A DNA stretch of 64,000 nucleotides from Acidaminococcus sp. (lineage in GTDB: Bacteria > Bacillota > Negativicutes > Acidaminococcales > Acidaminococcaceae). The notes under the pieces were generated by a model. That model searched no databases, was not told the DNA's origin, and was given only the letters and a program-made list of their open reading frames with translations. Of the stretch, positions 10,538-14,161 are shown piece after piece. The stretch covers positions 2,376,946 to 2,440,945 of the forward strand of contig JAKVOM010000001.1 of assembly GCA_022482815.1 (NCBI GenBank). Direction: 5' to 3'. A program made the position numbers and the translations under genes. How positions within the stretch are numbered: the first letter of the stretch is position 1; each line of letters begins with the position of its first letter.

Positions 10538-10558
10538 AGCCAATCGCCTCTCGTTTAT

Positions 10559-10585
10559 CAATTCAATATTATTTTAATTGAATTG
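10559..10585. promoter_or_regulatory. Perfect inverted repeat between HMA protein and ATPase genes
   Basis: CAATTCAAT and ATTGAATTG flank a 9-nt spacer in the 55-bp gap. It may be a second repressor site or an mRNA hairpin that tunes ATPase translation. Confidence 0.45.
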
Positions 10586-10592
10586 ACTTCAA

Positions 10593-10814
10593 TTAAAAGT
10601 AAATTTTGCAATCTTCATCGACTTTATGGCAATTTTCCAGCACTTTGTTCATTACTTCTTGTGTATCTGCACCGTCGGAAAACTTCACTTTCATGTTGAG
10701 CAGCATGAAGTTAACGACCGCTTCATCAACGCCGGGCGTATGCTTAGCGGCTTGTTCCATCTTATCAGCACAAACAGCACAATCTACATCTATCTTATAA
10801 CGCTTTGTTTTCAT
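10593..10814 (-). CDS. Stand-alone heavy-metal-associated (HMA) domain protein
   Basis: From the ATG at 10814 (AGGAGGAAACGTA upstream) this is a 73-residue ferredoxin-like metal-binding domain with the motif VDCAVCADKME, whose CxxC is close to the DCAxCA type of Zn/Cd ATPases. It is 55 bp upstream of the ATPase gene and probably acts as the ATPase's detached metal-binding domain or a metallochaperone delivering to it. A longer frame reaching 11063 covers the promoter and is not coding. Transcription probably starts from the TTGACA/TATAAC promoter immediately upstream. Confidence 0.88.
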   Translation of the reverse strand: MKTKRYKIDVDCAVCADKMEQAAKHTPGVDEAVVNFMLLNMKVKFSDGADTQEVMNKVLENCHKVDEDCKIYF

Positions 10815-10837
10815 TACGTTTCCTCCTATAAGCTTTT

Positions 10838-10897
10838 CAATTAAAAGATTGTTTAATCGTTTGATTATGTTATACCCTTTTTTACAGGTGATGTCAA
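10838..10897 (-). promoter_or_regulatory. Promoter and candidate metal-repressor operator of HMA/P-ATPase operon
   Basis: On the minus strand a consensus TTGACA (10892-10897) and TATAAC (10869-10874) are 17 bp apart. Eleven bases downstream, at 10838-10858, is a 21-bp element with halves CAATTAAA and TTTAATC (plus-strand reading). The same element occurs at 14033-14053 before feoA. Confidence 0.8.
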
Positions 10898-11046
10898 GAA
10901 AGAAAATAAAAGATGGACACATCGAGAAAAAGTGTACAGGAAGTGACAAAAAAATGCTGTGGTGCTTCGCACAGAAAGAAAGCTGTGGCGCTGTGGCCGC
11001 CCTTGGCGGCGGGCCTGCGTTGCTAAAAAAGAGACCGTGAAAAATA

Positions 11047-11470
11047 AAAGGTGCTTTTGGCATATGGCATTTAGCCCCGTCTGCTATTTAGTGAGTGGTT
11101 AGTGCGTAGTGGTTAGTACGCTAGTGCGAAAAGCAACTTGGCGGATTTCTCAGATAGATTGCAGGAATCAGTTAGTTTTTAACCCCTGCAAAGTGCCCAA
11201 CAGTTTGCTTTCTTCAGTGGCGAACCGCGGCCAGCGACCTGCGTAAAAAGGCGCTGTGAAAAAATAAAAAGCGCTTTTAGCTTTTTGGCATATGGCATAT
11301 AGCCCAGTAAAGTGGATAGTGGCTAGTGGAGAGTGGTTAGCACTGTAGTGCTGGCAGCTACTTTGGCGGATTCTTGAGATAGAATGCAGCGAGCAGCTAG
11401 TAGAAAATAAAGGCGCTTTTGGCTTATGGTATTTAGCCTCGCTACAGCAGTGTGGTGAAGGTTTTAATTC
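11047..11470. repeat. Composite intergenic repeat, several copies of modules A and B
   Basis: The 850-bp gap 10815-11664 holds at least three A modules (GCGCTTTTAGCTTTTTGGCA type, near 11047, 11265 and 11406). It also has two B modules with TAGTGG heptamers ending in TTGGCGGATT (11090-11150 and 11311-11385). A CCAGCGACCTGCG tail is near 11232. No credible gene is visible. Confidence 0.8.
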
Positions 11471-11485
11471 AAATAAATATGATGT

Positions 11486-11526
11486 AAAACCTGAAATTTA
11501 GCAGATAACCTAAATTTCAGGTTTTA
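11486..11526. repeat. Hairpin repeat module E (copy 1)
   Basis: AAAACCTGAAATTTAG and CTAAATTTCAGGTTTT form a long perfect stem. The same stem with the same flanks occurs at 38069-38109 and 56865-56909. It may also act as a bidirectional terminator. Confidence 0.85.
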
Positions 11527-11606
11527 TTTTTTATAAGTTCAAAGAAAAATGCCTTGTCATTTTTCGTCCACAGGCGGAATGCGGGCTGCGGGCGGCGGAA
11601 AGCGTG

Positions 11607-11655
11607 AAAAAGGGCTGTGAAATAATGTGCACGCATTATTTCACAGCCCCTTTTG
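11607..11655. terminator. Terminator downstream of feoB
   Basis: A 16-bp perfect stem, GGGCTGTGAAATAATG with its complement, is followed by TTTTT on the minus strand. It is the same stem family as the terminators at 39.7, 51.7 and 61.7 kb. Confidence 0.9.
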
Positions 11656-11664
11656 TTACGTATT

Positions 11665-13731
11665 TTATCCCCAGAGGGACAATAAGATGTGGTAGCAGAT
11701 AAAGGTGACAATCCAGGCAACAATCAGCTGAAAGGCAGCTTCTTCAAAAGTCCACTTCCAGCTTCCGGATTCTTTCTTAATGGTAGCGAGGGCTGCCGTA
11801 CAGGGAATGTACAGCAGGCAGAATACCATCAGACAGAAAGCATTGATGGAAGTAAAGCCAATGCCTTCGAGCGCTTGTTCAAAGTTGACCATGCCGCCTG
11901 CCGTCGTAGGATTCGAAATACCAAACAGGACAGCACAGCTGGAAACAACAACTTCCTTTGCCGAAATACCGGCGAGAAGTGCCAGGGTAATTTGCCAGAA
12001 GCCCAGTCCAATCGGCCGGAACATCGGAACCATCCAATGTCCAAGATAGGCACCAAAGCTCTGCGTCGGGTCTTCCGTATAGCCGGTGGGCCCAAAGTTG
12101 AGGATGAACCAGATAATGATGGTACCCAGGAAAATAATTGTACCGGCCTTTGCGAGATAACCTTTGATCTTATCAGATACATAAATGGCCACCGTACGCA
12201 GATCAGGCATTTTGTATTCCGGAAGTTCGATGAGCAGAAAATCTTCTTTATCCTTCTTCCGAATAATGTCCATCCAGTGAAGCAGCAGGGAAACCCCGAT
12301 AGCTACAAGCACGCCGATGATGTACATTGAATAGGCTGCAACCATAGCATATTTCTTGAAGAAAATTTCCGAGAAGAGGATATAAATCGTCAGTCGGGCG
12401 TTGCAGCTCATGAAAGGAGTAACCAGCATGACTTTGTAGCGGTCCCTTTTGTTTTCCAGTCCGCGGGAAGCCATAATCGCCGGCACGGTGCAGCCAAAAC
12501 CTACGAGCATAGGAATAAACGCGCGTCCGGAAAGGCCGACTGCACCCATGACGTTTTCCATGACGTAAGCAACACGTGCCATGTACCCGCTGTCTTCCAA
12601 AAAGCCCAGACTGAGGAACAAAATCAGGATGTTGGGCAGGAACGTCACGATTGTTCCGACCCCGCCGAGAGCCCCATCCAATACCAGAGACTGGAGTGGC
12701 TTGCTGACGTCGGCTGCTGTCATAATTTCTTCCAGATAATTCGAAAGCATTTCGATACCGGCTTCGAGGAATCCGCTCAGCCAGTCACCGACGGTAAAGG
12801 TCAGGAAGAAGATAAAGGCCATGACAGCCAGAAATACAGGAATGCCCCAGATATTGTTTGTGAAAATCTTATCCATGCGGTCCGTAAATTCATCGCGCTT
12901 TTCCTTATGCAGGACGACTTCACGAATAATTTCTTCGATAAAGTCATATTTTTCCCGAATAATTTCCACTTCATAGCTCTTATCCAGAACTTCCGGCAGT
13001 TCGACCGGATATTTTTCCATGACTTCTTTATCCTGTTCCAGCAATTTAATGGACGTCCAGCGGACATTGCTGATATCCAGATAATGTTCATGCAAATAAG
13101 CAGAAATCTGATCGATGCGGTCTTCAATATCATCGGAATAGACCATGGCGTATTCCTTATGATTCAACTGATGGCTGGAAGATTCGGGATGGTCATGAAT
13201 CAGAGGGTCTGTAGAAGTAGAATCCTTATGGTGGGCAGCTGCGTGCAGCAGCACTTCGAGGCCCCTCCCCTTCCGCGCTGATACGGGAATGACAGGAATT
13301 CCCAGCATTTCCGGCAGGCGGTGCAGGTCGATTTCAAGGCCGCGTTTTTCTACGATATCCATCATGTTAAGGGCCATGACGACAGGCTTCCCAAGTTCCA
13401 GGAGCTGCAGCGTCAGATAAAGACTGCGTTCCAGGGCTGAAGCATCCACTACGTTGATTACGACGTCTACTTCATCGCTCAGGATAAACTGACGGGATAC
13501 GATTTCTTCCATCGTGTAGGATGTGAGGCTGTATGTGCCCGGCAGGTCCACCAGACGAATATTCATATTATGGTGACGAATTGCACCTTCCACCTTTTCA
13601 ACGGTTACGCCGGGCCAGTTAGCAACCTTGAGGTTAGCTCCCGTATAGGCGTTAAAAAGTGTTGTTTTCCCGCAGTTAGGGTTACCGATAAATCCAATTG
13701 TCAAATTTTGATTTGCTTCTTTTTCAGGCAT
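11665..13731 (-). CDS. feoB: Ferrous iron transport protein B
   Basis: This is a 688-residue inner-membrane Fe(II) importer with an N-terminal G domain. The G motifs are visible: GNPNCGKTTLF (G1, near residue 16), DLPGTYSLTS (G3), NMMD (G4) and SARKGRG (G5). The membrane part has the two Gate-like repeats, including GFGCTVPAIMASR and AKEVVVSS, with a C-terminal helix. A charged helical stretch (about 180-285) separates the domains. Its start overlaps the feoA end by 8 bp, so translation is coupled. Transcription comes from the feoA promoter with its candidate metal-repressor site. Confidence 0.96.
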   Translation of the reverse strand: MPEKEANQNLTIGFIGNPNCGKTTLFNAYTGANLKVANWPGVTVEKVEGAIRHHNMNIRLVDLPGTYSLTSYTMEEIVSRQFILSDEVDVVINVVDASALERSLYLTLQLLELGKPVVMALNMMDIVEKRGLEIDLHRLPEMLGIPVIPVSARKGRGLEVLLHAAAHHKDSTSTDPLIHDHPESSSHQLNHKEYAMVYSDDIEDRIDQISAYLHEHYLDISNVRWTSIKLLEQDKEVMEKYPVELPEVLDKSYEVEIIREKYDFIEEIIREVVLHKEKRDEFTDRMDKIFTNNIWGIPVFLAVMAFIFFLTFTVGDWLSGFLEAGIEMLSNYLEEIMTAADVSKPLQSLVLDGALGGVGTIVTFLPNILILFLSLGFLEDSGYMARVAYVMENVMGAVGLSGRAFIPMLVGFGCTVPAIMASRGLENKRDRYKVMLVTPFMSCNARLTIYILFSEIFFKKYAMVAAYSMYIIGVLVAIGVSLLLHWMDIIRKKDKEDFLLIELPEYKMPDLRTVAIYVSDKIKGYLAKAGTIIFLGTIIIWFILNFGPTGYTEDPTQSFGAYLGHWMVPMFRPIGLGFWQITLALLAGISAKEVVVSSCAVLFGISNPTTAGGMVNFEQALEGIGFTSINAFCLMVFCLLYIPCTAALATIKKESGSWKWTFEEAAFQLIVAWIVTFICYHILLSLWG

Positions 13732-13957
13732 TAGCGGCTCCCTTCTCTACTTCGATGTTGCGGGTCATATTGTAACCGAGGGCAAACCGGGTTCCCCTCA
13801 GAATAATAATCATCACACCTTTTCCCTTACGATTGACCACACTGATTTCCGTCCCCGGCGTCATACCAAGCGCCAACAGGCGTCGTTCCGTCTCAAACGG
13901 AAGATTCAGTTTGACAACTACACCGGACTCACCCTTCTTTAAGTCCTTTAACAGCAT
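13724..13957 (-). CDS. feoA: FeoA-type SH3-like protein of the iron uptake operon
   Basis: From the ATG at 13957 this is a 77-residue small basic protein with the FeoA pattern: an N-terminal L-KKGESGVVV, the RRLLALGMTPGTEISV core and a C-terminal GTRFALGYNMTRNIEV. FeoA proteins bind and stimulate FeoB at the membrane. A frame extending to 14035 would run into the candidate operator, and its added residues look unlike FeoA, so the internal ATG (GGGGGT upstream) is preferred. It overlaps feoB by 8 bp. Confidence 0.9.
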   Translation of the reverse strand: MLLKDLKKGESGVVVKLNLPFETERRLLALGMTPGTEISVVNRKGKGVMIIILRGTRFALGYNMTRNIEVEKGAANA

Positions 13958-14032
13958 ATGCCAAGTACCCCCATACTTATGATAGTCCCGGGAAGACAAA
14001 ACTTCCTTCCCTGCTTTCCCGGAGAAAAGTAA

Positions 14033-14066
14033 CAATTAAACAATTATTTAATCCTATTTTATTATA
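14033..14066 (-). promoter_or_regulatory. feoAB promoter -10 and candidate metal-repressor operator
   Basis: TATAAT (minus strand, 14061-14066) is followed 7 bases later by the 21-bp element at 14033-14053. That element agrees with the one at 10838-10858 at all but three positions (CAATTAAA...TTTAATC halves). It would cover the transcription start. Confidence 0.75.
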
Positions 14067-14131: not shown

Positions 14132-14161
14132 AAAAAGACGGCTGCAGCCTGCAGTCGTCTT
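14132..14161 (-). terminator. Terminator of the arsR gene
   Basis: AAGACGACTGCAG pairs with CTGCAGCCGTCTT, followed by TTTCT on the minus strand, overlapping the arsR stop. It separates arsR from feoAB. Confidence 0.8.

Follow-up and report, generated by a model that had tools for sequence, protein, structure and literature searches.

Predicted capture of the feoAB ferrous iron importer by an ArsR-family efflux repressor in a gut Acidaminococcus

Within the genome of an Acidaminococcus species (assembly GCA_022482815.1, contig JAKVOM010000001.1), genes for ferrous iron import and for the predicted export of other divalent metals lie side by side. The stretch analysed here, referred to as the window, is 64,000 nucleotides long (positions 2,376,946 to 2,440,945 of the contig) and includes arsR, feoA, feoB, a gene for a stand-alone HMA protein, and a P-type ATPase gene, all on the minus strand (Table 1). 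The products of feoA and feoB have the profile expected of a ferrous importer, with a FeoA domain in the first and G-protein, Gate, and C-terminal domains in the second. Two closely similar DNA elements, one upstream of feoA and one upstream of the HMA gene, are the subject of this analysis. The genome is a single contig (99.99% complete, 1.44% contamination); it is one genome of its species, and an unusual assembly is possible.

Table 1. Genes, predicted operators, promoters, and hairpins at the locus, in window positions; bit scores of operators are those of the matrix described in the text.
Feature	Position	Strand	Details
Zn/Cd-type P1B ATPase, 639 residues	8642..10561	-	TIGR01512 (cadmium family) 483.4 bits, cut-off 313.5; 4umv E 4e-93
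Weak third operator-like element, HMA-ATPase gap	10556..10583	-	16.6 bits; score reached once per 6 Mb simulated
Stand-alone HMA metal-binding protein, 73 residues, motif DCAVC	10593..10814	-	Pfam HMA 25.6 bits, cut-off 24.8
ArsR operator (predicted) of HMA-ATPase operon	10836..10861	-	core 20-mer 10839-10858; 32.5 bits
HMA gene promoter	10869..10897	-	TTGACA 10892-10897, 17 nt spacer, TATAAC 10869-10874; read from sequence
Terminator-like hairpin 3' of feoB, before HMA-ATPase unit	11612..11649		scan: on + only
feoB, ferrous iron transporter, 688 residues	11665..13731	-	TIGR00437 586.3 bits, cut-off 315.65
feoA, ferrous transport accessory protein, 77 residues	13724..13957	-	Pfam FeoA E 1.3e-17
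ArsR operator (predicted) of feoA	14031..14056	-	12-2-12 palindrome, core 20-mer 14034-14053; 33.4 bits
-10-like hexamer TATAAT of feoA	14061..14066	-	read from sequence; promoter inferred
Terminator-like hairpin, arsR/feoA gap	14135..14161		scan: on +; shorter on - (14154-14142, tail CCGTCTTTTT)
arsR, ArsR/SmtB-family repressor, 121 residues	14160..14525	-	listed from GTG 14525; ATG 14516 likelier start

The element at 10838-10858 reads CAATTAAAAGATTGTTTAATC and that at 14033-14053 reads CAATTAAACAATTATTTAATC; they agree at 18 of 21 bases. These positions and this agreement had been put forward in the original prediction, together with a location just downstream of a -10 box in each case, and reading the sequence bears them out: TATAAC lies 10 nt ahead of the core 20-mer at the HMA gene, and TATAAT lies 7 nt ahead of it at feoA. 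The HMA promoter is missing from a consensus promoter scan, which accepts a -10 box only with T as its final base. The same scan proposes another promoter for feoA, TTGAAA-18-TAGGAT (14080-14051).

Across the 3.06 Mb genome, the feoA and HMA elements are the only places within two mismatches of the palindrome ATTAAACAATTGTTTAAT, and they are also the only matches to a tighter degenerate pattern with one mismatch. At exactly three mismatches from ATTAAACAATTGTTTAAT, three more places appear (one for a reversed-pattern control), and a looser degenerate pattern with two mismatches gives two further places vs two for its reversed control. A permissive half-site pattern (three mismatches or fewer) had seven matches in the window, which is not significant (shuffled sequences gave a mean of 3.58 with a standard deviation of 2.02, and 7 of 100 reached seven).

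Comparison across genomes ties the element to a particular family of regulators. The ArsR protein retrieved 31 loci from a species-level collection with one genome per species; the nearest three are from Acidaminococcus, and most others are from Lachnospiraceae and other Clostridia. HMA and ATPase homologues are present in 26 of these loci; in 24 of them arsR and the HMA gene are divergently oriented, and the motif is found within three mismatches in all of the 26 except L045, which has a more degenerate site in the same place. The five remaining loci had no HMA or ATPase match on those pieces. In both Acidaminococcus and Clostridia the site lies directly past the -10 box and ahead of the HMA start codon, in the form AACGATTAARCA-NN-TGYTTAATCGTT, so that the target promoters carry, by sequence, the 12-2-12 inverted repeat of SmtB/ArsR operators. 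This form, and the placement of the ziaA operator that is matched here, have been described for SmtB/ArsR sites (PMC8790569). In a genome from another family of the same order (G039), a perfect site stands 22 bp ahead of an HMA-like gene that is accompanied by its ATPase gene.

A further set of 61 relatives was divided by the presence of an ArsR orthologue, defined as at least 44% identity. Sites with zero mismatches occur in 8 of 10 genomes with an orthologue, the two others (G004 and G008) having degenerate sites, vs 2 of 51 without one; this control is not blind, as the pattern was written after such sites were known. Taken together, it is well supported by comparative sequence analysis that the feoA and HMA elements are predicted operators of the neighbouring ArsR's family.

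Additional sites were seen in Lachnospiraceae-type genomes, where 12 surrounding regions were inspected. Eight of them (L160-L166 and L168, from eight genomes) have the operator, with 0 to 2 mismatches, before an ABC exporter operon that encodes an ABC_tran ATPase and a 925-residue FtsX/MacB-type permease (for example L162:4533-4552), and this operon is likely to be a second target of the ArsR family in some Lachnospiraceae. Another, L159, is an HMA-ATPase operon; the sites in L167, L169, and L170 (one or two mismatches) are within long reading frames or overlap them and appear to be background. Related palindromes of the ATTTAGTATTTACTTAAT type adjoin other ArsR paralogues (G004:C6:375625-375679 and G007:C1:781151-781170), and sister ArsR proteins may therefore use similar but distinct operators.

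The strength of the sites was scored with a symmetric 28-bp matrix built from 28 HMA-promoter sites of other genomes. Its input was 39 loci, from which the window's own (L089), six with near-duplicate sites (L046, L047, L051, L052, L055, and L058), and four without an HMA match (L062, L065, L171, and L015) were dropped; for L060 and L066 the promoter-proximal site was used instead of the script's top-ranked one. The feoA element scores 33.4 bits and the HMA element 32.5, within the range of leave-one-out scores of the training sites (24.3 to 41.2 bits), and the next places in the window reach 16.6 and 4.1. A matrix from 20 of the 28 training sites, those from outside Acidaminococcus, gives 32.2 bits for feoA and 30.9 for the HMA gene. 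The maximum in 6 Mb of Markov-simulated sequence was 17.1 bits. The three genome places with exactly three mismatches score 12.1, 1.9, and 14.6 bits; each falls within an automatically called reading frame or at its start, and the frame at the 12.1-bit place, only 68 residues long, may be no gene. Recurrence upstream of unrelated genes, as plain A/T-rich promoter sequence, is thus not what the genome contains, and chance promoter sequence was rejected as the source of the two elements on the basis of their scores and of their being the only two places within two mismatches.

Terminator-like hairpins follow both arsR and feoB, so feoAB looks like its own unit. That following feoB continues on the minus strand into TTTTT, as read from the sequence, where the scan gives no terminator. 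Read-through from feoB as the link to the HMA-ATPase genes was rejected because of this hairpin. The arrangement suggests that feoAB and the HMA-ATPase pair are separate units, joined only by the predicted shared operator. The gap between feoB and the HMA gene is ∼850 bp in the window species and ∼785 bp in G003, and 157-300 bp in the other seven sister Acidaminococcus species. Part of an interspersed repeat lies in this gap (window 10935-11470), with at least 46 genomic matches, its own included (of 328 candidates, 40 were scored); among the matches listed, the next five are 95-98% identical over ∼205-244 bp.

The neighbouring regulator belongs to the SmtB/ArsR family by winged-helix fold and family profile (Pfam HTH_5, E 9.4e-11; NCBIfam HTH_metalloreg, 79.4 bits with a cut-off of 55). 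An AlphaFold2 model has a confident ArsR fold (mean predicted local distance difference test score, pLDDT, of 88.9) and matches CzrA, HlyU, SmtB, and CadC in the PDB with Z scores of 14-15; the model is that of a monomer. Among 31 aligned ArsR sequences, P7-H8-x-H10, L49-C50-H51, E54-C55-V56, and N58 are invariant, and E53, H106, E110, and C117 are found in at least 90%. The invariant residues H8, H10, C50, H51, E54, and C55 are candidate metal ligands.

Two sensor classes are relevant to these residues: alpha-5, with the motif DxHx10Hx2E (or H), and alpha-3N, with two cysteines in alpha-3 (Cx1-2C or Cx2CD) and one or two N-terminal cysteines (PMC8790569). The alpha-5 motif of SmtB and CzrA is absent from the window protein: its four places are taken by D98, E100, M111, and D114, with the conserved residues H106 and E110 in other registers. 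A D/H/H/E-like last helix, which the original prediction had read in this protein, is therefore wrong, and the SmtB-type alpha-5 site was rejected, with the invariant ligand-type residues lying elsewhere. The predicted shared operator itself stands, now tied by comparative genomics to the family of the neighbouring ArsR protein. The alpha-3N motif of CadC and AztR is likewise absent, with C55 in EECVIN alone in alpha-3 and C50 before it, and the N-terminus has H8 and H10 where alpha-3N proteins have cysteine. A variant alpha-3N site formed by the N-terminal histidines and C55, perhaps with C50, is possible and comes closest to fitting these residues; the alpha-3N site of SmtB also includes a histidine (C14, H18, C61, and D64; PMC1665450).

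In four other loci (L041, L050, L055, and L059) the ArsR domain is joined to ∼110 further residues that resemble, by eye, an AraC-type helix-turn-helix. The window genome also contains a second ArsR - HMA - P-ATPase locus (G000:C1:819783-822950; L192), with a CVCD-type sensor and no strong operator match.

The P1B-2 class (Zn/Cd/Pb) is characterized by CPC, Lys, and DxG in the last membrane helices, and the window ATPase has this signature. Its best solved relative is the zinc-transporting ATPase 4umv, with CPC, K, and DTG aligned; it departs from this relative in reading CPCALVLCVP vs CPCALVISTP, such that Cys replaces Thr after CPC. The HMA partner has the DCxxC motif typical of Zn/Cd HMA domains, yet among solved structures it scores best with copper HMA domains. 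The P-type ATPases that one review lists as iron exporters belong to P1B4 (PMC7762939). Given this, the fit to the cadmium subfamily model, and the relationship to 4umv, Zn/Cd/Pb is the likeliest substrate class.

The history of the two predicted operators appears to be different. Nine of nine Acidaminococcus genomes share the order feoB - site - HMA - ATPase, although the contig of G005 has only part of feoB and the site is degenerate in G004 and G008, and counterparts of the HMA-gene site occur in the eight other Acidaminococcus genomes and in Clostridia. The position of arsR varies: it adjoins feoA in the window species, G001, and G008, is far away in G002, G004, and G007, and is on another contig in G003, G005, and G006. 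A second site in the HMA-ATPase gap also varies in strength, from 30.7 bits in G005 through 16.6 in the window, 15.3 in G008, and 9.2 in G001 to 5.0 in G003. The predicted HMA-ATPase operator is widespread and old. Since that of feoA is found in the window species alone among sampled genomes, it is most likely a recent gain.

These observations lead us to propose, with a probability of roughly 0.7, that an efflux-operon repressor has captured feoAB in this gut bacterium, and that excess metal derepresses export and ferrous import together. The older target of ArsR would be the efflux operon of HMA protein and P1B-ATPase; the feoAB promoter of the window species would then have gained a full-strength copy of the operator, such that the same repressor holds feoAB down. 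Apo-ArsR would most likely block both promoters from sites at or just past the transcription start, and binding of an inducing metal, most likely Zn, Cd, or Pb, would release both. In this way feoAB would rise together with the efflux pump when the inducing metal is in excess, with the plausible benefit of replacing iron that the toxic metal has displaced from enzymes. Iron is unlikely as the inducer because it would raise its own importer; a competitor metal makes sense in this role because export and iron resupply would act together. We infer binding, repression, metal identity, and physiological benefit from the sequence comparisons.

Several points weigh against this proposal, some of them shared with the alternative that the feoA element is a look-alike, arisen by chance or neutrally, that plays no part in regulation, which we regard as unlikely. 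The operator is absent from all seven other Acidaminococcus species with a readable feoA promoter (best 1.9 bits; the eighth, G005, has no feoA on its contig). A search for feoB in 25 ArsR-bearing genomes gave matches in 21, and the 30 loci obtained (37 matches, 7 without a locus) peak at 15.7 bits, although some of these loci may miss the promoter. With one mismatch allowed, sites are found in 9 of 10 genomes with an ArsR orthologue and also in 18 of 51 without; weak matches therefore mean little, and A/T-rich promoters favour such sequences. The feoA -35 is poor, which makes its promoter call less certain. In Acidaminococcus, arsR itself has no such operator (the best upstream score among 11 arsR records from nine genomes is -1.5 bits), and its autoregulation through this element was rejected on that score. 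A literature search of limited coverage found no direct control of feo by an ArsR protein, the nearest case being an indirect effect of CadX on FeoA. Against a look-alike at feoA stand its score, almost twice the maximum of the simulated sequence, and the fact that both genome places within two mismatches follow the -10 box of a metal-transport gene near the regulator.

It is also conceivable that the ATPase is an exporter of ferrous iron, like PfeT and other P1B4 pumps of that kind, and that ArsR senses iron, making the cluster an iron-balance device. The conserved adjacency of feoB, HMA, and ATPase genes in Acidaminococcus does suggest linked function; but the ATPase fits the cadmium subfamily and 4umv best, its partner has DCxxC, a metal that induces its own importer creates positive feedback, and the Clostridia loci examined had no FeoA or FeoB match beside the operon, which together make this quite improbable. 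Even less probable is another regulator (Fur, DtxR, or a second ArsR protein) as the reader of the element. Candidates exist, as the genome encodes four Fur-family proteins and three further ArsR matches. The feoA upstream region, however, agrees at best at 11 of 19 positions with the E. coli Fur-box consensus, which may not be that of this genus, and the element, even-centred and 12-2-12 in form, corresponds to SmtB/ArsR sites as described (PMC8790569) and accompanies this ArsR family in Acidaminococcus and Clostridia. The regions of the three paralogous ArsR genes have no operator match above 11.2 bits. The closest paralogue (G000 822.7 kb; 37% identical, with a CVCD site) was rejected as the reader because its recognition helix is different and its neighbourhood holds only the 11.2-bit match.

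A second feo operon in the window genome has TTAG-N6-CTAA in its promoter region (G000:C1 ∼2930550-2930610; L195 ∼2050-2110), which we take to resemble a DtxR-type palindrome; the two feo operons may therefore answer to different regulators.

Capture of feoAB by an efflux repressor, as proposed here, would have partial parallels in known systems. CadC of Staphylococcus aureus pI258, which controls the efflux P-ATPase gene cadA, has the same fold (1u2w, Z 13.9), and C55 of the window protein aligns with the first cysteine of its CVCD. The alpha-3N ligands of CadC are C7, C11, C58, and C60 (PMC1665450), whereas the window protein has H8 and H10 at its N-terminus and I57 in place of the second alpha-3 cysteine. 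In Synechocystis, ziaA is likewise a P-ATPase gene with a divergent SmtB-type repressor, ZiaR; the available part of the source places no ferrous importer under ZiaR and classes it as alpha-3N plus alpha-5, whereas the window ArsR lacks both textbook ligand sets. AzuR of Anabaena PCC 7120, an SmtB/ArsR repressor, has a 12-2-12 site at a gene that is not part of its own operon, but the target is a metallothionein and the protein is grouped as an alpha-5 sensor (PMC8790569). The closest link to iron import is CadX of Streptococcus suis, encoded in the locus of an ArsR-family cadmium repressor: FeoA rises when cadDX is deleted, yet CadX does not bind the feoA promoter (PMC11430099). Here, in contrast, feoA has a full predicted operator.

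As a rule, ArsR-family efflux repressors are linked with detoxification genes, and iron regulators with feo. If the proposal is true, feoAB has come under an efflux repressor through the recent gain of an operator; this would be a clean example of regulatory rewiring in nature and would offer a direct test of the idea that more iron import counters toxic divalent metals. More widely, an operator is now defined for an ArsR family found in gut Clostridia and Negativicutes, whose likely targets are the HMA-ATPase operon and, for some of the Lachnospiraceae, an ABC exporter as well; this allows regulon prediction in many gut bacteria.

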